Of a DNA stretch of 37,155 nt, positions 4,504-31,577 are shown piece after piece. The notes below the pieces were generated by a model. That model was not told the DNA's origin. It ran no database searches and worked only from the letters and a program-made list of their open reading frames with translations. The DNA is taken from NCBI GenBank assembly GCA_030602805.1, contig JAUVZA010000005.1, forward strand, positions 1 through 37,155, given 5' to 3'. The position numbers and the translations under genes are program-made. Positions within the stretch are counted from its first letter, which is position 1. The number at the start of each line of letters is the position of its first letter. The DNA comes from Dehalococcoidia bacterium. Lineage in GTDB: Bacteria; Chloroflexota; Dehalococcoidia; Dehalococcoidales; JAUVZA01.

Positions 4504-4683
4504 CCGAAAAATGTGTCGTCAGCGACATTGGCACAACTCAGTAATGAGCACTTTAAGTAATTTATTTGTCTCCTGTCAAGTTTCCCGGGTTGCCTCGTTT
4601 CCGTTTTAAGATAGCTATCCATCACATTGACAGACATTGTATAATAGGTCTATCATAACCAGAAAAAGGAGGTGTCGGGCAGG

Positions 4684-5183
4684 GAAGAATTTACTCAAGG
4701 AGAAACTGCAGAAAGGTCAGATTGTTATTGGAACCTTTGTCGGCCTCGGTCACCCAGATGTGACCGAAAGGCTCTCCGTCTTGGGTTCGATTGGCTCTTG
4801 ATAGACGGTGAGCATGCGCCCATAGGCCTAGAGACCATGCAGCAGATGATGCAAGCCATAAATGGGAGCAACCGCACTCCCATCGTAAGGCCACAATGGA
4901 ACGATATGATCATTATCAAGCGTGTCCTCGATATAGGTGTCCATGGCATCCTTGTCCCATGGGTCAACACGAAGGAGGAGGCGGGATACGGCGTATGTGC
5001 CTGTAAGTATCCACCTGAAGGCCTCCGAGGATGCGGACCAAGGAAGCTGCACTTTTCGACCCGGATTACCTTAAAACAGCCAGATGGGGAATTTGGGGTG
5101 AGGGGGGTTAGTGCTGTGGTAGAGATGGCAGCAGCATCGGGGATTACCCTGGTGCCACCAGAGAAGCTAGACCCGTTAGTTGC
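4684..5183 (+). pseudogene. HpcH/HpaI aldolase remnant (lost start, two frameshifts) fused to a glycerate-kinase-derived segment
   Basis: Across frames: KNLLKEKLQKGQIVIGTFVGLGHPDVTERLSV / LGFDWLLIDGEHAPIGLETMQQMM...GVHGILVPWVNTKEEA...GCGPR / ALFDPDYLKTA, then about 105 bp similar to glycerate kinase positions 7268-7371. Confidence 0.85.
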
Positions 5184-5267
5184 GCCCCCGTGGAAGTTAA
5201 CTCTGCGGCGGCTTAATAGGGCTAAATTAAATAATTGAAAGGGGGGACACATATACACATTAAACGA

Positions 5268-7045: not shown

Positions 7046-8185
7046 ATAAAAATAGTAATTGCCCCACAGAGCTTTAAGGGAAGCCTTAGTGCGCAAGAAG
7101 TAGCCCAAGCCATAGCCAAGGGGATTAAGCGCGTTGTGGCTGATGCTGAGACCATCATGGTGCCTATGGCCGATGGTGGAGAAGGGACAGTAGAGGCTTT
7201 AACCTACGGTAGCCACGGTCAAATTGTAGCCACCGAGGTAACGGGACCTCTAGGAGAGAAGGTCACCGCCAAATGGGGACTTTTGGGTGACAGAATTAGT
7301 GCTGTGGTGGAGATGGCAGCAGCATCGGGGATTACCCTGGTGCCACTAGAGAAGCTAAACCCATTAGTTGCCACCACATACGGCACGGGGGAGCTGATTC
7401 AGGCTGCCCTTAATGCTGGTTGCCGCAGGCTAATTATTGGTATAGGCGGCAGCGCTACTAATGATGGTGGTGCCGGCATGGCGCAGGCCCTTGGGGCAAG
7501 ATTGTTGGATGAGGGGGGCAAGGAGCTTCCCTGGGGTGGGGCAGCACTAGCCAAGTTAAGTCGGATAGACATCTCTGAACTGGATCGCCGCCTAGCCGAG
7601 TGCGAGGTCATTACGGCGAGTGATGTAACCAACCCGCTCTGCGGTGAGCAGGGAGCCTCAAGAGTTTATGGCCCGCAAAAGGGAGCCACAGAGGAGATGT
7701 GCCAGCAGCTAGATGAAGCCCTAGCCAACTATGCTAAGGTAATCAAAAGGGATTTGGGCATTAATGTTATGGACATACCCGGGGCGGGGGCCGCTGGAGG
7801 GCTAGGGGCTGGGCTAATAGCTTTCCTAGGTGCTAAGCTAATATCGGGGATAGAAATCGTCAGCGAGGTAGTGGGACTTACAAACTATCTTAAAGAGGCG
7901 TCTCTTGTTTTCACCGGTGAAGGTAGAATAGATACGCAAACGCTGTTTGGCAAAACAGTAGCTGGCGTTGCCGCAAAGGCAAAGGCATGCAATGTTCCGG
8001 TGGGAGCCTTAGCCGGTGAGGTAGACGGTGATGGTAAAGAATTCTCCCGGCATGGCGTAGATGCTGCCCTAAGCATCACCCCCGGCCCTATCAGCTTGAG
8101 GAAATCCATGGCTAATGCGGAGAAGTTAATCGCCGATGCCGCTGAGCGAGCCTTACAGTTAATCTTGATTAGGCTGAAGAAATAG
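7046..8185 (+). CDS. Glycerate kinase (GlxK/GarK family), apparent ATA at the start position
   Basis: In frame from 7046: ATA-AAA-ATA-GTA-ATT-GCC = (M)KIVIAPQSFKGSLSAQEVAQAI...VPMADGGEGTVEAL; SD-like AGAGGA at 7031-7036. ORF track starts at GTG 7136, which would remove the conserved N-terminus. Confidence 0.88.
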   Translation: MKIVIAPQSFKGSLSAQEVAQAIAKGIKRVVADAETIMVPMADGGEGTVEALTYGSHGQIVATEVTGPLGEKVTAKWGLLGDRISAVVEMAAASGITLVPLEKLNPLVATTYGTGELIQAALNAGCRRLIIGIGGSATNDGGAGMAQALGARLLDEGGKELPWGGAALAKLSRIDISELDRRLAECEVITASDVTNPLCGEQGASRVYGPQKGATEEMCQQLDEALANYAKVIKRDLGINVMDIPGAGAAGGLGAGLIAFLGAKLISGIEIVSEVVGLTNYLKEASLVFTGEGRIDTQTLFGKTVAGVAAKAKACNVPVGALAGEVDGDGKEFSRHGVDAALSITPGPISLRKSMANAEKLIADAAERALQLILIRLKK

Positions 8186-13481: not shown

Positions 13482-14420
13482 GTGGCCGATAGCTCATCAG
13501 GGGGAGTAGCCGAGAGAAAGAGACACTTCTGGCTGGTCGGTTTCTTGATAAGGCTGGTGAAGGAGAAGCCGCTGGGTGCTGTCGGTGGGATTATAACCCT
13601 GCTCCTGCTTTTCACCGCCATTTTTGCCGATTTACTTGCCCCCTATGGAATGAATGAAGTTAATATGGGATATTTCATGGTTCCACCATCAGCCAAGTTC
13701 TGGTTGGGCACAGATAACATTGGGCGAGACATGCTCTCTCGTGTCATCTTCGGGGCTCGCGTCTCGGTGACTGTAGGTTTGGCTGGTGCTACTCTGGCTA
13801 CGATTGTCTCTTTATTTATAGGTGTTGTGTCCGGGTACATCGGCGGTAAACTTGACCTGCTAGTGCAGAGGGTCGTTGATGCCTGGCAGTGCTTTCCCAG
13901 TTTAATTATTATGATGGTCATAATAGGCATCATCGGGGCGGGTATAGGGCCGATAATCATTACTTTGGGGCTAACATGGGGTATCGTCGGTTCCAGGCTA
14001 ATAAGAAGTGCTGTTATCGGCATTAAAGAGAATGTATATGTGTCAGCGGCGACGGCTATCGGCTGCTCTACCCCCAGGATACTTTGGCGACATATCCTGC
14101 CCAATATTATGGCGCCCACAATTATCCTGTTTACCCTACGGGTGCCGTCTATTATTATCACTGAGGCTAGCCTGAGCTTTCTCGGCTTTGGTATTCCTCC
14201 CCCCACTCCGAGCTGGGGAGGTATGCTTAGTGGCTCTGGGCGCGCCAATATGTTCCTGGCACCGTGGATGGTTATATGGCCTGGCCTTGCCCTGGCTATC
14301 GTGGTCTATGGTATAAATATGTTTGGCGATGCGGTGAGAGATATACTGGACCCGAGGCTGAGGGGCGGCGCCGGGCGCTATGGGGTGAAAGTGAAAAAAG
14401 AAGCCTCGGTAAAAAAGTGA
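13482..14420 (+). CDS. ABC transporter permease, DppC/OppC family
   Basis: 312 aa; HPL-like FWLGTDNIGRDMLSRVIFGARVSVTVGL, ISEASLSFLGFGIPPPTPSWGGML. GTG start. Confidence 0.94.
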   Translation: MADSSSGGVAERKRHFWLVGFLIRLVKEKPLGAVGGIITLLLLFTAIFADLLAPYGMNEVNMGYFMVPPSAKFWLGTDNIGRDMLSRVIFGARVSVTVGLAGATLATIVSLFIGVVSGYIGGKLDLLVQRVVDAWQCFPSLIIMMVIIGIIGAGIGPIIITLGLTWGIVGSRLIRSAVIGIKENVYVSAATAIGCSTPRILWRHILPNIMAPTIILFTLRVPSIIITEASLSFLGFGIPPPTPSWGGMLSGSGRANMFLAPWMVIWPGLALAIVVYGINMFGDAVRDILDPRLRGGAGRYGVKVKKEASVKK

Positions 14421-14441
14421 GCCCAGCCCCCCAGAGGGGTG

Positions 14442-14630
14442 TGAGCTAGTTCAGATAGATAGGTGACACTTGCTACTCAAAATGTGGCATACTTTATCCT
14501 TACTCCCACGTCATTGCGAGCGAAGCGAAGCAATCTCATGATTGCTTCTTCCCTCCGAGATTGCTTCGGCACTTTGTGCCTCGCAATGACAAGGTAAGGA
14601 AGCAATGTGTCACTAATTATATGAACGAGT
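14442..14630. mobile_element. MITE-like element with termini matching the IS at 30617-31577
   Basis: Left end tgagctagttcagatagataggtgacac and right end gtgtcactaattatatgaacgagt correspond to the two ends of the IS copy; no transposase inside. Confidence 0.65.
14511..14592. repeat. Imperfect palindromic intergenic repeat (cattgcgag..gaagcaatc family)
   Basis: gtcattgcgagcgaagcgaagcaatctc ... gagattgcttcgg..cctcgcaatgac; related copies near 12180-12297 and 19524-19672. Confidence 0.7.
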
Positions 14631-14638
14631 ACATTGCC

Positions 14639-14667
14639 TTGACAAGTTACGCTTCTCTGTTATAATT
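14639..14667 (+). promoter_or_regulatory. Sigma70 promoter upstream of the mttB-like gene
   Basis: TTGACA-16 nt-TATAAT: ttgacaagttacgcttctctgttataat. Confidence 0.6.
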
Positions 14668-14902
14668 GCCTAAACAGCCTGCATTTGAAGCTAAAAAGGG
14701 GCTTTGCGAAATTAAATAGTCAAGATTCTTAAAGAGGTTAAAAAATGGTTATTTAACGGACCGCGGAGCTTCTCAAGTGGGACAGGGGGCATATAATACA
14801 TCCCTCATGTATAGTTGGTCAGGGTACCGATATAGTTTTTGAGAAGGGAGACGGGGTAACATTGGTGGATACAGTATAAAACTTTTTCTGGAGGGAGACG
14901 CA

Positions 14903-16384
14903 ATGGCAAAAGAAATCAACACAAAGCGACCACTGGTAAGTCTTTTGAGCACCGAATTTATAGAGAGGGTTATAGAAGAGGCTAAGGATGTCCTGGAGAA
15001 GACCGGGGTTTGGGTAGAAAATGAAGAGGGCTTGGAATTGCTTAGCAACGGTGGTGCCCAAGTTGACCGGGGGAAAAAACAAGCTTTTATCCCGAGAAGG
15101 CTGGTCGAGGAGTCGTTAAAGTCGGTTCCATCATCAATCGTAATCTATGATAGAAACGGTAATCCCCATATGAATTGGGAGGGAAACAATAGCTATTTCG
15201 GCGCTGTCGGGGGTGGTAAGGTATGGGATTCAGACCTAGGTCAGCTCAGGGAGTCTACTACCGCGGAGGACCAAATCAATTGTATTAAACTGATCGATGC
15301 CCTGGACAATATAGATGGACAGGGCGCTAGCGTTCTGCTTACTGATGTCCCTATGGAGATTAGAGGATACTACCGACTTTATCTTTACCTGAGGTATTCA
15401 ACTAAGCCATTTTTCGGTGGTGGCGCACGAACCAAAGAGGGCTTTCAAGTCGCAAAGGACTTATTGGTGACCATCCGCGGCAGTGAAAAGGCCCTACGAG
15501 ACAAGCCCTTGAACTGGTCTTCAATTTGCCCTGTCGCTCCTTTAAAATGGGGGGACCTTATCTGCGGCAGCCTGATACGATATGCTCAGAATGGGATACC
15601 GGTAGTAATGACGCCACTGCCCTTAACCGGGGCTACTGGTCCAATCACAATAGGTGGCAGCCTTGTTCAGCACACTGCCGAGGGTCTAAGTGGAGTGGTG
15701 ATAAGCCAGCTTGCTAACCGAGGTGCCCCCATTCTCTGGGCAGGTTCCCCAATAGCCTTTGATATGCGCTGGGGTACCACACCTTTTTCAGCTATTGAGA
15801 GCATTATGATGGGCATGGCTTGCTGTGAAGTGGGAAAATATTTCGGATTAGCAACACGGACCTATATAGGGTGTAGCGATGCCAAGCGCCCTGATTCGCA
15901 GGCGGCACTGGAGACAGGGATTGGCACTGTCTTGGCTGTTCTTGCCGGAATCAATATAATAACAAACGCGGGGCAGTTGAATTTCGAAACTGTTCTGAGT
16001 CTAGAAAAACTGGTAATTGATAATGAGATTTATGGCATGGCCCGCCGCCTGGCGCAGGGGATTACTCCAAGAGGGGAACCCCTGGCGGAAGAGCTGTTTA
16101 CCGAGGGACTATATGAAGGGAAGCATTTCCTGCTCTCCCCGGCTACCATGAAATGGCTTAGGCAGGAGTATTTCTACCCCGGACCTGTAATCAGCCGGGA
16201 AGACGGACAGGTGTGGATGGAAAAGGGGTCTACCACGGCGGAGCAGAGGGCAAAAGAGGAGGTCAAAAGGATTCTGGCTACACATGAGCCGGAGCCCCTT
16301 GACAAAGACATTGATAGAGAGCTCCTAAGAATCGTAACAAAAGAAGCCGAAAAATACGGCATCAGCAAACTGCCCCTGCCGTAG
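14903..16384 (+). CDS. MttB superfamily corrinoid-dependent methyltransferase, non-pyrrolysine type
   Basis: 493 aa uninterrupted; TGATGPITIGGSLVQHTAEGLSGVVISQL, SDAKRPDSQAALETGIGTVLAVLAGINIITNAGQL typical of the trimethylamine methyltransferase family; no in-frame TAG. Confidence 0.92.
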   Translation: MAKEINTKRPLVSLLSTEFIERVIEEAKDVLEKTGVWVENEEGLELLSNGGAQVDRGKKQAFIPRRLVEESLKSVPSSIVIYDRNGNPHMNWEGNNSYFGAVGGGKVWDSDLGQLRESTTAEDQINCIKLIDALDNIDGQGASVLLTDVPMEIRGYYRLYLYLRYSTKPFFGGGARTKEGFQVAKDLLVTIRGSEKALRDKPLNWSSICPVAPLKWGDLICGSLIRYAQNGIPVVMTPLPLTGATGPITIGGSLVQHTAEGLSGVVISQLANRGAPILWAGSPIAFDMRWGTTPFSAIESIMMGMACCEVGKYFGLATRTYIGCSDAKRPDSQAALETGIGTVLAVLAGINIITNAGQLNFETVLSLEKLVIDNEIYGMARRLAQGITPRGEPLAEELFTEGLYEGKHFLLSPATMKWLRQEYFYPGPVISREDGQVWMEKGSTTAEQRAKEEVKRILATHEPEPLDKDIDRELLRIVTKEAEKYGISKLPLP

Positions 16385-16414
16385 CTGGGGAAAAACATTA
16401 CTGGAGGTATAACT

Positions 16415-17050
16415 ATGGATTTGCTGGAAAGCATTAAAGAAAGCATCATAGATATGGACAGGGAAAAGGTGGTTGAGTTGACTAGAAAGGCGCTGGATGA
16501 GGGGATTAAGCCGAAAAAACTCGTTGATGAAGGCTTAACCCCTGGTATGGATGTTGTTGGTCAGGAGTATGAGAAGGGCATTAAATTTATTCCAGAGATG
16601 TTCATGTCAGCCGAGGCGCTGCGGGGAGCTATGGAACTGCTCAGGCCGATTCTGACTAAATCAGAGTTGTCCAGGGCAGGAAAAGTGATTATGGGGACAG
16701 TTGAAGGTGATATACACGACATAGGGCTGCAAATAGTTTCCATGATGCTGGAGGGGGCTGGATTTGAGGTTTACGACCTTGGTGTTGATGTGCCAGCAGA
16801 GAAGTTTGTGGAAAAGGCAAAGCAAGAAAAGGCTGATATTGTTGGAATGTCGGCTTTTCTAACCACCACTGGGCTTCGTTTCTCGGATGTAATTGAAGCC
16901 CTACAAGAAGCTGGCATACGGGAAAAGGTGAAGGTAATGATTGGTGGCGCCGCGGCTAGCGGAAAATACGCAGAGACAATTGGTGCTGACGGCTATGGAG
17001 CCAACGCCAGTGCGGCAGTAAGATTGGCTAAGTCATTTATAAGTAAGTAA
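16415..17050 (+). CDS. Corrinoid (B12-binding) methyltransferase partner protein, MttC/MtbC-like
   Basis: 211 aa; GDIHDIG cobalamin-binding motif, ADIVGMSAFLTTT, VKVMIGGAA. Confidence 0.93.
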   Translation: MDLLESIKESIIDMDREKVVELTRKALDEGIKPKKLVDEGLTPGMDVVGQEYEKGIKFIPEMFMSAEALRGAMELLRPILTKSELSRAGKVIMGTVEGDIHDIGLQIVSMMLEGAGFEVYDLGVDVPAEKFVEKAKQEKADIVGMSAFLTTTGLRFSDVIEALQEAGIREKVKVMIGGAAASGKYAETIGADGYGANASAAVRLAKSFISK

Positions 17051-17142
17051 TTAGCTTAAGTGACGAGAGAAAGTGTGAAGAAAAGAAGAATATAGCTGAA
17101 AAATAACCAACTTTTGAACGTAACCCTAACTGCCTCCGCCTC

Positions 17143-17427
17143 TGAGCTAGTTCAGATAGATGGTTGACAAAACAGTAAAAAGGCTATAACGTAAAAAAAG
17201 TGAGCCGAGCCCCCCAGGGGGGTTGACAAAGCAGTAAAAAAGGCTATAACATAAAAAAGTGAGCCGAGCCCCCCAGGGGGGTTGACAAAGCAGTAAAAAA
17301 GGCTATAACATAAAAAAGTGAGCCCAGCCCCCCAGAGGGGTTGACAAAACAGTAAAAAAGGCTATAATATAAAAAAATAAGCCCAGCCCCCTAGAGGGGT
17401 TGACAAAACAGTAAAAAAGGCTATAAT
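17143..17427 (+). repeat. Five-copy, 59-bp-period tandem promoter array
   Basis: TTGACA begins at 17164, 17223, 17282, 17341 and 17400 (spacing exactly 59); each is followed 15-16 nt later by TATAAC or TATAAT. A solo IS-end sequence tgagctagttcagatagat precedes the array. Confidence 0.93.
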
Positions 17428-17480
17428 AAAAGCAATCCATTAGTAAAGGAGAAAATTTGTGGGTGAAAGGAGGACAAAAT

Positions 17481-17546
17481 GTGAGAGTAAATGAAATCAA
17501 TAAAAAGTGTTGCTTATTAAAAACTAGGGAGGTAATGAACAAATGA
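17481..17546 (+). CDS. Possible 21-aa leader peptide overlapping the SBP start
   Basis: AGGAGG at 17469-17474, GTG at 17481; reads VRVNEINKKCCLLKTREVMNK and its TGA overlaps ATG 17543 as ATGA. Confidence 0.25.
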   Translation: MRVNEINKKCCLLKTREVMNK

Positions 17547-19309
17547 AAAAAAGAATCTTGTGGCTGGGGTTGAGCTTCTTACTGGTGACCACTTTAGTGC
17601 TGACCGCTTGTCCGGCTCCAGAGGAGCCGGTGGTAGAGGAGCCAGTGGTAGAGGAGCCGGTGGTAGAGGAGCCGGTGGTAGAGCCGCCAGTAGGTGTGCC
17701 ACAATATGGTGGGACGTTCACCATCACAAACTATTGCAGTAAAGACGCGGAAAGCCCGGACATAAAGGATGGTTATTGGTGCCCACTCCAATGGCTCCAG
17801 CCTGTTCAAGAGAAGGCAGTTATTGGCGACTTTGAGAAGTACGGGCCCAGGGGCACCGGTGAATATGGATTTAACTTGGTAGAGTATATCCCCGACCAGT
17901 TCTTGACAGGCGCGTATATCGAAGATTGGGAGATTTATCCCGACAAGATGGTCTGGCACATACGGCACGGAATTATGTGGCACGGTAATAAACCATGGGT
18001 AATGGAATCCAGGGAAATGACTGTCGACGATGTTGTCCAAGACATACTCTACTTCATGGACTGCCCAGGGGCGAAGGAACTCAAGAAATATCTAGGGGAA
18101 ATATACGCCCTAGATGAAGACTCTCTTGTTATTGAATTCACTGAATACCACCCTCTAAATTTCTATAACCTTACCTGGGAAGACCGCGTCGGATTAACTC
18201 CCCCTGAACTGATAGACGCCGGTGTAAAGTCGTGGGAAAATCAGGTTGGCACCGGACCATTTATGCTTGATGAGTATGTCGTTGGTTCTCACTTTAGGTT
18301 CATAAAGAACCCTGTTTGGTACAAAACGACGACCATCAACGGCGTGGAATATCCACTACCGTTTGTAGAAGAGCTGATAACGCCCATAATTCCCGATAGG
18401 ACTACCAGACAGGCTGCGATGCGAACGGGGAAGCTTGACCACTATTATAGGGTGCCTGCTGAGTACTGGAAAAGCCTGGACGAAGGAGCTATTGGGATAC
18501 AAAGCGTCAAATATCCTGGGCCTGAGGGATATGCTTTATATTTAAAGCATGACCGGCCGCCTTTCGATAACCTTGAAGTTCGGCGAGCTATGATGATTGG
18601 CACCAACTTCACAGCCTTCGCTGAGCTCTATGGCCTGGGGCCACTACCAATAGACTGGCACCCAGTGTATTCTGAGCATCCCGAGACCGTTTACACCCCA
18701 CTGGAAAAACTGCCGCTGGCAGACCGAATACTATATGAGTATGACCCGGCAGAGGCAAGGAAGATACTGGCCGCTGAAGGTTGGCCCGATGGCTTTACGG
18801 TAAAGTGTATGCTTCCTGCGGCGGGCATATACGAAGGAGATAACCTAGCTCTGCTTGTCTACCAGTGGGAGAAGATTGGCGTTACGATTGAAGTAAACGC
18901 AGTCGATGGACCTACCAACAGTAGAGCCTACCACTTCCCACATGAATTCGCTCACATGTTCATAACGACCAAGGAGGTAGCCAATCCACTTCATACAATC
19001 CTCTCTTGGGGGGTGACGGGGTCGCCGTTTAACGCTGGTGCGTTTTCGGACCCGGCGCTTGATGCGCTAGCTGACAAGATAAAGCCAGAGGTAGATCTGG
19101 TTAAGCGAGACGTCCTGATAAAGGAGGCACTCGTATTGTACAGTTCTGCGGTTCCCCTGATACCTCTTCGGCCTATACTGGAAGGGCACTATTGGTGGCC
19201 GTGGGTAAGGAATTACTGGGGTGAGAATTACGTTGCTGACTATGATATGACCACCCCCTTTGCCTATGCCTGGCTTGACCAGGAGCTGAAGACAGAGATG
19301 GGATATTAG
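17543..19309 (+). CDS. ABC transporter substrate-binding lipoprotein, peptide/nickel (SBP family 5) type
   Basis: 588 aa; lipobox LVLTAC, EEPVVEEPVV linker, SBP_bac_5 features (VGTGPFMLDEYVVG, LRRAMMIGTNFTAF-like, ARKILAAEGWPDGF). Confidence 0.92.
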   Translation: MKKRILWLGLSFLLVTTLVLTACPAPEEPVVEEPVVEEPVVEEPVVEPPVGVPQYGGTFTITNYCSKDAESPDIKDGYWCPLQWLQPVQEKAVIGDFEKYGPRGTGEYGFNLVEYIPDQFLTGAYIEDWEIYPDKMVWHIRHGIMWHGNKPWVMESREMTVDDVVQDILYFMDCPGAKELKKYLGEIYALDEDSLVIEFTEYHPLNFYNLTWEDRVGLTPPELIDAGVKSWENQVGTGPFMLDEYVVGSHFRFIKNPVWYKTTTINGVEYPLPFVEELITPIIPDRTTRQAAMRTGKLDHYYRVPAEYWKSLDEGAIGIQSVKYPGPEGYALYLKHDRPPFDNLEVRRAMMIGTNFTAFAELYGLGPLPIDWHPVYSEHPETVYTPLEKLPLADRILYEYDPAEARKILAAEGWPDGFTVKCMLPAAGIYEGDNLALLVYQWEKIGVTIEVNAVDGPTNSRAYHFPHEFAHMFITTKEVANPLHTILSWGVTGSPFNAGAFSDPALDALADKIKPEVDLVKRDVLIKEALVLYSSAVPLIPLRPILEGHYWWPWVRNYWGENYVADYDMTTPFAYAWLDQELKTEMGY

Positions 19310-24084: not shown

Positions 24085-25422
24085 CTATTTCACAACCACA
24101 ATCAGCCTGAATGTCCATTCTACCCCCTTTCCACCTTCCCAAGGTTGGCTGTATTCCATGGACACCTCAGTAGAGCCTTCTTTGAGTGCCTTGAAAGTCC
24201 ACACCTCTTTCCCCGCAGCTTCCGGAGCATCCTCCTCAGGAGGTACAAATCTATGGGCTAGCTGCTCTAGCACAGACTGATCATCAATTTGTGCTGACTC
24301 TGACCACTGGAAGCCCGCTGTACGGTCGGAGCCCAGAGTTACTGTAAATGAATCACCGGCAGCAAGTTCCACTTCCTTACTGACGTGTCGGTACATCCTC
24401 AAGTAGACAATTGAAACTGTGACATGTAGCTTAAAATATTTTACATCGACCCTCTTTTCCCAAAGCTGAGGGATATAGACATTGACCGATGTGGTGCCCA
24501 AGGGATTGTTCATCAAATTCACGGTATCTCCCTGCGAAAGCCCACTGTTCTCCACCAGTGGTGATATGTCGCTGATGTTGTTGCCAGAAAGGTGAATCTC
24601 CCGCAGGTTGACAAGGCCAGTTACTGTTGAGAGGTCGCTGATATCGTTTTCCTGAAGGTAAAGCCACTCTAGGTTAGCAAGTCTCGCTAGAGGAGATATG
24701 TCGCTTACCTGGTTCTCGCCAAGGTGGAGCCAGGTGACTTCAGTGAGGGGGGCTAGAGAAGATATGTCGCTTACCTGGTTCACATCAAGGCCGAGATGGG
24801 CGAGGTTAGTGAGGGGGGCTAGAGGAGATATGTCGCTTACTTGGTTATACGCAAGGCTGAGCCAGGCGAGGTTAGTGAGGGGGGCTAGAGGAGATATGTC
24901 ACTTACCTGGTTCAGGCCAAGGTGGAGCCAGGTGAGGTTAGTGAGAGAGGCCAGTGGAGATATGTCGCTTATCGTATGATTATAGGGAAGGTGGAGCACA
25001 GTGAGGTTAATGAGAGAGGCCAGTGGAGATACGTCGCTTACCAGGTTATATGCAAGGTCGAGCCAGGTGAGGTCAGTGAGAGAGGTCAGTGGAGATATGT
25101 CGATTACCAGGTTATACGCAAGGCTGAGATGGGTAAGGTTAGTGCAGTACTCCAATCCGGTGAGGTCGGTGATGTCTCTTCTAGAAGCAGAAAGAAAGGA
25201 GAGTCCTTCCAGCTCAGAGGTATGGATGGGACCTTCAGGCTTGCCGATAGCCTCTCTTACGGCTGCCTCAAGATTTGAATCAGGAAAGGTTACTACTGTC
25301 TCATCGGTAGGGACTTCATCGGTAGGGAGGTCTTCAACACCACAGCCAACGCCGATAGCGATTATGACCAGCACCAGCCAAAGAGACAGTGCTTTACCCA
25401 TTTTGCTAACCACTTTCCTCAC
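24085..25422 (-). CDS. Leucine-rich-repeat (internalin-like) lipoprotein with C-terminal chagasin-like (inhibitor I42) domain
   Basis: 445 aa; signal plus lipobox IGVGC; tandem LRRs LTNLTWLHLGLNQVSDISPLA; C-terminus AAGDSFTVTLGSDRTAGFQWSE...AAGKEVWTFKALKEGSTEVSMEYSQPWEGG. Confidence 0.85.
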   Translation of the reverse strand: MRKVVSKMGKALSLWLVLVIIAIGVGCGVEDLPTDEVPTDETVVTFPDSNLEAAVREAIGKPEGPIHTSELEGLSFLSASRRDITDLTGLEYCTNLTHLSLAYNLVIDISPLTSLTDLTWLDLAYNLVSDVSPLASLINLTVLHLPYNHTISDISPLASLTNLTWLHLGLNQVSDISPLAPLTNLAWLSLAYNQVSDISPLAPLTNLAHLGLDVNQVSDISSLAPLTEVTWLHLGENQVSDISPLARLANLEWLYLQENDISDLSTVTGLVNLREIHLSGNNISDISPLVENSGLSQGDTVNLMNNPLGTTSVNVYIPQLWEKRVDVKYFKLHVTVSIVYLRMYRHVSKEVELAAGDSFTVTLGSDRTAGFQWSESAQIDDQSVLEQLAHRFVPPEEDAPEAAGKEVWTFKALKEGSTEVSMEYSQPWEGGKGVEWTFRLIVVVK

Positions 25423-30558: not shown

Positions 30559-30616
30559 AAATAACAGCCTTTAGATTTATTGTAGCATAGCCTATGCAAT
30601 GGGGGAAGTATTTGTG
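30559..30616 (-). promoter_or_regulatory. 58-bp duplicated module, copy 2 (upstream of FtsX-type permease)
   Basis: Exact match to 23602-23659; interrupted at its distal end by the IS. Confidence 0.6.
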
Positions 30617-31577
30617 CTCGTTCATATGATTAGTGACACATGGCCTCCTTTCCAGAGTATTCTTTCCGCTGCTCCAGAAATTTAAGTGGTGTCACATAAC
30701 CCAGTGCCTGGTGGGGTCTTACGGTATTATACACCTGTTCCCATTCTAATAGCTCCTCCCTTAGCTCGGAAAGGTCAAAGGAACTTTCTGTTACCCCATA
30801 GAATTCCTTGGTATGAGTCCGGTGAGCTCGCTCAACGCCACCATTGAGTTTGGGTGAGCGTGGTGGCAAGACGAAGAGGTTAATACCACGCTTCTGGCAT
30901 TCCTCTTCAAAGACCGCTTCAAATTCTGCTCCACCGTCTACCTGAATTGCCCTCACCGGGAAAGGCATCCTGCTCTCCAGGGTATCCAGGAAGTGGGCAG
31001 CGGTGCTAGCATTAGCTCGACTATGGACACTGACCACATCCCACCGTGATACAACATCCTTGGCAGTAAAGTGTTTGAGAATTATTCCGGGCAGGGGTCT
31101 CACATCTAATGTATCCACCTCTACTATATCACCTGGCTTGTTGGCTAGGTATTCTTTTGGCTTTCTTATGGCATAAGGACGCTGCCGCTGTCTTTTCCTC
31201 ACCATGCAGCAACACCGTCAGTTTATCTTTCCCCATCTGGGATATTTCTCTCTTAATTTAAGTACAGCCTGAACTAGCTTCGTAGAATAGGTAGGCTGTC
31301 TTACATGCTGGGGCCGATGGGAACGCTCCTCCAGACTTGCTATATGCCTGGGGTTATAGCGTCTCTTCCAACGGTAAAAAGTCTGTGGAGAGATGCCAAA
31401 GTAGCGGCAGGTAAGGCGGGCATTGTGAGTATGAGAGTGGTAGCAATCAAACCATTTAAGTCTTTGCCTGGCTTTTTTCGATAGCTCCCAGGCGAGAGAC
31501 TCTAGGAACTGCTCCACTTATTATTCTCATAGTCCGCCTTAGGCGGATAGTGTCACCCATCTATTTGAACTAGCTCA
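30617..31577 (-). mobile_element. Degenerate insertion sequence with rve-type (IS481/IS3-like) transposase
   Basis: Termini ctcgttcatatgattagtgacac and gtgtcacccatctatttgaactagctca; two ORFs: HTH half 31218-31517 (ARLTCRYFGISPQTFYRWKRRYNPRH) and catalytic half 30630-31205 (DIVEVDTLDVRPLPG...IQVDGGAEFEAVFEEE...PHQALGY). Confidence 0.88.
30630..31517 (-). pseudogene. Transposase of the above IS, frameshifted and apparently internally deleted
   Basis: ...KYPRWGK-IN* / in another frame KDKLTVLLHGEEKTAAASLCHKKA / in a third frame RKRQRQRPYAIRKPKEY. Confidence 0.75.

Follow-up and report, generated by a model that had tools for sequence, protein, structure and literature searches.

A 59-bp promoter repeat upstream of a binding-protein gene

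The window, by which we mean the whole stretch of 37,155 nucleotides analysed here, holds an OppC/DppC-type permease gene and a solute-binding protein gene separated by a methyltransferase module, insertion-sequence remnants and a tandem array of promoter-like units. The features of this region are, in order:

13482 to 14420, forward strand: OppC/DppC-type permease gene (Pfam PF00528, PF12911)
14410 to 14440, forward strand: block 0, a 31-bp exact copy of the GC-rich block of unit 3 (E 2.6e-9, own genome)
14442 to 14633, forward strand: non-autonomous IS481-type element of 192 bp, directly after block 0, with left and right terminal repeats and without transposase
14903 to 16384, forward strand: MttB-superfamily methyltransferase gene (Pfam PF06253; NCBIfam TIGR02369 below cut-off)
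16415 to 17050, forward strand: gene of the methyltransferase cognate corrinoid protein (Pfam PF02310, PF02607; NCBIfam TIGR02370 above cut-off)
17143 to 17163, forward strand: IS481-type left terminal repeat, 21 bases, fused to unit 1 at GG/TTGACA
17164 to 17222, forward strand: unit 1, TTGACA-N15-TATAAC and GC block, its -35 abutting the IS481-type end
17223 to 17281, forward strand: unit 2, TTGACA-N16-TATAAC and GC block
17282 to 17340, forward strand: unit 3, TTGACA-N16-TATAAC and GC block (identical to 14410 to 14440)
17341 to 17399, forward strand: unit 4, TTGACA-N16-TATAAT and GC block, predicted active promoter (12 of 12 hexamer bases)
17400 to 17427, forward strand: unit 5, TTGACA-N16-TATAAT, gene-proximal promoter (12 of 12 hexamer bases)
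17543 to 19309, forward strand: gene of a family-5 extracellular solute-binding lipoprotein, 3' of the array (Pfam PF00496)

The first-pass annotation of this DNA had described TTGACA hexamers at 17164, 17223, 17282, 17341 and 17400 with a spacing of exactly 59 bp, TATAAC in units 1 to 3 and TATAAT in the two units nearest the gene, spacers of 15 nt in unit 1 and 16 nt in units 2 to 5, and a binding-protein gene downstream, and all of this is borne out, the last by the Pfam match to PF00496. Its bounds for the array took in the stretch 17143-17163, which is the IS481-type terminal repeat and lies outside the repeat. The GC-rich block that it placed between the promoters is likewise present, with a fifth copy beyond its coordinates at 14410-14440.

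Tandem Repeats Finder reports the repeat at 17162-17426 (265 bp) with a period of 59, 4.5 copies and a 94% match. The array is not a chance occurrence; the pattern TTGACA-N16-TATAAY, allowing at most one mismatch, is found five times in the window against 0.25 expected, four of the five within the array, and none of 100 shuffles reached five. Since each of the five units differs from all the others, they are not copies of a single assembled unit. In unit 1 an A has been lost from the spacer and an extra A gained after the -10, so that the length of 59 bp is kept. The arrangement, direct tandem promoter-bearing copies immediately 5' of a gene, is that of a promoter tandem repeat.

Three other identities were considered and rejected. 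A coding repeat would call for a period divisible by 3, which 59 is not, and the array is crossed by no long open reading frame (ORF); no known RNA family is found in the window at gathering thresholds; and a dispersed genomic repeat does not fit a search of the own genome that, beyond the array, returned just block 0 and matches to the IS481-type end.

The array is followed by a 21-codon leader ORF (17481-17546, forward strand; VRVNEINKKCCLLKTREVMNK) with a GGAGG just 5' of it, whose TGA overlaps the start of the binding-protein gene (ATGA), and this stop/start overlap suggests translational coupling between the two. Short ORFs preceded by GGAGG, of different sequence, also stand before the binding-protein genes of the paralogous operons on contigs C52 and C96. 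Within the binding-protein gene itself, after the lipoprotein signal, a 15-bp tandem repeat of about 4.3 copies (17620-17683) encodes a repeated EEPVV linker. No relatives of the binding protein were found in a separate contig collection, which possibly leaves out the own genome.

Promoter quality along the array

TTGACA-N12-20-TATAAY occurs at 40 sites genome-wide and at 6 in a reversed control, which marks the TTGACA/TATAAY pair as a real promoter class in this genome. The -10 hexamers outside the array end in T at 31 sites and in C at 4, with A or G in this place at about 6 further sites together, and TATAAC is thus approximately at background level. Spacers outside the array measure 17 or 18 bp at 26 of 35 sites.

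Set against these preferences, the claim of five sigma70-like promoters 5' of the binding-protein gene finds good support in units 4 and 5, which match the hexamers at all 12 bases, have a 16-bp spacer and belong to the class enriched over its control. It finds little support in units 1 to 3, whose TATAAC is near background; the five copies are not equal promoters. The distal units miss the full sigma70-type consensus through TATAAC and, in unit 1, also through the 15-bp spacer. Since the final T is strongly preferred and spacers of 17-18 bp dominate, units 1 to 3 are probably weak promoters, and expression of the gene is probably driven by units 4 and 5. Unit 1 in particular is predicted to be a weak promoter, combining a short spacer with a C at the last -10 base, while the start site of unit 5 is predicted near 17434, about 110 nt 5' of the start codon. 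The distal copies also hold a weak alternative -10 (TATAACAT; TAACAT at 18-bp spacing in units 2 and 3) and may for this reason not be silent. Promoter activities and relative strengths are here what we infer by prediction from sequence.

No terminators were found between the units on the forward strand. Among the four promoters with 16-bp spacers, two of 28 columns vary, which is too few for unequal conservation of the hexamers within units to be detected.

A copy of the GC block at the end of a permease gene

Block 0 lies 2.9 kb upstream, takes in the TGA with which the OppC-type permease gene ends (14418-14420), and is the sole close match to the repeat unit outside the array in the own-genome search. 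Without the interval 14441-17163, block 0 would abut unit 1 exactly as the blocks abut the promoters inside the array: the five blocks would then be spaced at 60, 59, 59 and 59, and the five promoters at 59, the single block spacing of 60 being due to one shared junction T. On the most economical account, an originally unbroken array filled the whole distance from permease stop to binding-protein gene and was split afterwards. The unsplit, empty-site arrangement was found in no genome searched.

The relative position of the permease and binding-protein genes varies among related operons. In keeping with the account of a split array, contig C52 carries two paralogous operons in which the binding-protein gene directly follows permB-permC, some 50-60 bp past permC. 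Against it, the permeases of contig C96 come after the binding-protein gene, and in genome G012 about 3.7 kb lie between permeases and binding-protein gene. The permease of C96 ends in KKE, without the five extra residues of the permease at 13482-14420, and block 0 may therefore be a fragment of the array that took the place of the permease end.

IS481-type ends and methyltransferase modules

The first 27 bases from 17143 have several matches in the own genome, and copies of this piece with unrelated outer flanks stand at unrelated sites there as well as in further families of the order. With up to three mismatches, we counted ten left ends and six right ends genome-wide, and none in reversed controls. 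The left ends at 14442 and 17143 share the same orientation and lie 2,701 bp apart, flanking the mttB and corrinoid genes. The family assignment comes from a 965-bp element with complete ends at 30613-31577, in which a minus-strand end at 31577 is paired with a related end at 30613, and which encloses an IS481 transposase fragment (NF033577, E 9.9e-35, a fragment below the curated cut-off); both the 17143 end and the element at 14442-14633 share terminal repeats with it and are for this reason called IS481-type here. No obvious target duplication was seen by eye in the flanks of the IS ends. Old insertions often lose their target site duplication.

Two further observations concern the 192-bp element and its surroundings. 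Inside it, at 14510-14590, lies a palindromic repeat with CGTCATTGCGAGCGAAGCGAAGCAATCTCA, which we take to resemble a dispersed repeat of many bacterial genomes. A few bases past the element, about 240 bp before mttB, a perfect TTGACA-N16-TATAAT whose -10 is preceded by a TG (14639-14666, forward strand) is probably the mttB promoter.

The genome contains five other mttB-corrinoid modules, and three of these five (on contigs C47, C67 and C31; loci L112, L114 and L115) have a terminal repeat with at most three mismatches within about 0.7 kb, while a more diverged IS481-type end lies near the module on C26 (L113). With the window excluded, three module loci with an IS481-type end compare with 0.13 expected, P about 3e-4 for what is a post hoc count. 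On C26 the GCGACA of the diverged end is followed at 16 bp by a TATACT into which the end runs, similar to the way in which the 17143 end runs into unit 1, and the IS481-type terminal GTGACA is one base off the consensus -35. Separately, on C47 the IS481-type end starts at the apparent stop codon of the corrinoid gene.

Two ORFs elsewhere in the window are recorded for completeness. One (24085-25422, reverse strand) joins leucine-rich repeats, with a DNA period of 66 bp and about 7 copies, to a chagasin-type peptidase inhibitor domain. The other (4672-5238, forward strand; 188 amino acids), near a complete glycerate kinase gene at 7136-8185 on the forward strand, combines part of an HpcH/HpaI aldolase with a short stretch of glycerate kinase and has the look of a gene remnant or a fusion.

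Origin of the array and its possible function

The account that we favour starts from the junction between the two transporter genes. The original segment, 59 bp in length, would have reached from the permease gene's end across the sigma70 promoter that serves the binding-protein gene; its tandem duplication would have left five promoter copies separating the permease stop codon from that gene. Later, an mttB-corrinoid segment with IS481-type ends would have been placed between block 0 (14410-14440) and the first promoter (17164). At present the proximal promoters at 17341 and 17400 would drive the binding-protein gene, and the TATAAC copies, one of them with a 15-bp spacer, would add little. 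We infer the order of these events from the arrangement of the locus, and give the account as a whole, from junction duplication through IS481-bounded split to the proximal pair driving the gene, about an even chance of being correct.

Alternatively, as the first-pass annotation proposed with its array that boosts or phase-varies expression, all five promoters might fire, with output growing with copy number and slippage altering both copy number and the level of binding protein. Such behaviour has precedents in engineered tandem tac promoters, where output rises stepwise up to five copies (PMC3293061), and at lpdA of M. tuberculosis, where expression with four copies is 12.5-fold that with one and single populations contain different copy numbers (PMC12817950). 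By analogy, slippage could plausibly change the copy number of a 59-bp direct repeat. Yet three of the five copies here carry a TATAAC near background in this genome, tandem promoters interfere through collisions (PMC11339919, PMC8830795), and the point differences among all units suggest an array without fast turnover, so that we consider this dosage function possible, though unlikely.

We are more doubtful that the array is a leftover duplication in which the proximal promoter alone matters and the remainder is decaying neutral sequence. The weakest hexamers and spacer do sit in the distal copies, and two variable columns in 28, over the four promoters with 16-bp spacers, show no selection on the hexamers. 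The perfect hexamers of unit 4 and a -35 that is perfect in all five units speak against a purely neutral remainder.

The recurrence of IS481-type ends beside mttB-corrinoid modules invites a more far-reaching speculation, namely that these ends travel with the modules as portable promoter parts and that the -35 of unit 1 came from, or was joined by, one of them, which would make the array a mobile-element-derived, expandable promoter for a transporter beside methyltransferase genes. We think this improbable.

The near-palindromic GC block just 5' of each -35 could conceivably serve as a repeated regulator site, as its CCCC-N5-GGGG is kept in all blocks, although a block that is absent elsewhere in the genome except for block 0 is unlike the site of a multi-target regulator, and block 0 overlaps a stop codon; an operator array is thus very improbable. 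We give even less credence to an effect at the RNA level, by which GC hairpins in transcripts from the upstream copies would stabilise or attenuate the leader: one GC block is predicted to fold into a 7-pair stem and the unit 1 leader to fold at -79 kcal/mol, but no U-run follows the stems on the forward strand, so they are not terminators, and the effect depends on active distal promoters. An assembly artefact in this 104-contig draft genome is equally remote, for although the 265-bp array is longer than common short reads and its exact copy number is uncertain, no two units are the same and assemblers are more prone to collapse such repeats than to expand them.

Distribution

Among 156 genomes of the order, the array is present in its own genome and absent from the other 155, and the promoter core was found in one of 400 genomes sampled from the phylum and in none of the other 399. 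An exact scan of the separate contig collection, which may leave out the own genome, found the array in none. A survey of the class for a promoter followed by a TTGACA within 45 nt returned 34 of 393 genomes; more than two such pairs on one strand occur in this genome only, and no run of repeated units is seen among the other pairs listed. A literature search turned up no paper that connects arrays like this with organisms and genes of this kind.

If active, the array would represent a natural five-copy near-consensus promoter array outside the pathogens in which promoter tandem repeats have been most studied. With its graded hexamers, this single array would lend itself to asking whether promoter duplicates persist for the sake of dosage or simply decay. 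On our preferred account of a duplicated junction, the block at the permease stop would record the birth of the array from an operon junction and its later splitting by a cassette bounded by mobile elements.

Comparison with known systems

The closest natural counterparts are the promoter tandem repeats of M. tuberculosis at dop (57-bp unit), lpdA-glpD2 and cysG-efpA, for which copy-number variants occur within populations (PMC12817950); an eLife study also cites expression links for promoter tandem repeats (PMC9213004). Both those repeats and the present array consist of direct tandem copies of a promoter region immediately 5' of a gene, with similar units (57 bp at dop, 59 bp here), and both are poorly resolved in short-read drafts. 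In M. tuberculosis, however, copy-number variation and, for lpdA, the change in expression have been measured, whereas the present array is known from the sequence of one genome. Unlike the M. tuberculosis repeats, it has a complete -35 and -10 in each unit, graded along the array, and an IS481-type end at its border.

The core-tac-promoter clusters engineered in E. coli share with it the arrangement of five head-to-tail near-consensus promoters before one gene, but they are synthetic and identical, with a 41-bp core; according to their authors, writing in 2012, prokaryote genomes had yielded no report of a natural tandem repetitive promoter (PMC3293061). Where tandem promoters lie close together, polymerase collisions can also reduce their output (PMC11339919, PMC8830795). 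The likeness to the IS481 family lies in the NF033577 transposase fragment, the 965-bp element with related terminal repeats and its 192-bp transposase-less derivative, while the copy at 17143 departs from the family in being one end alone, fused to the array, with no obvious target duplication. Judged by its anatomy, the array resembles known promoter tandem repeats, in a well-preserved form and with what seems an unusually legible origin.
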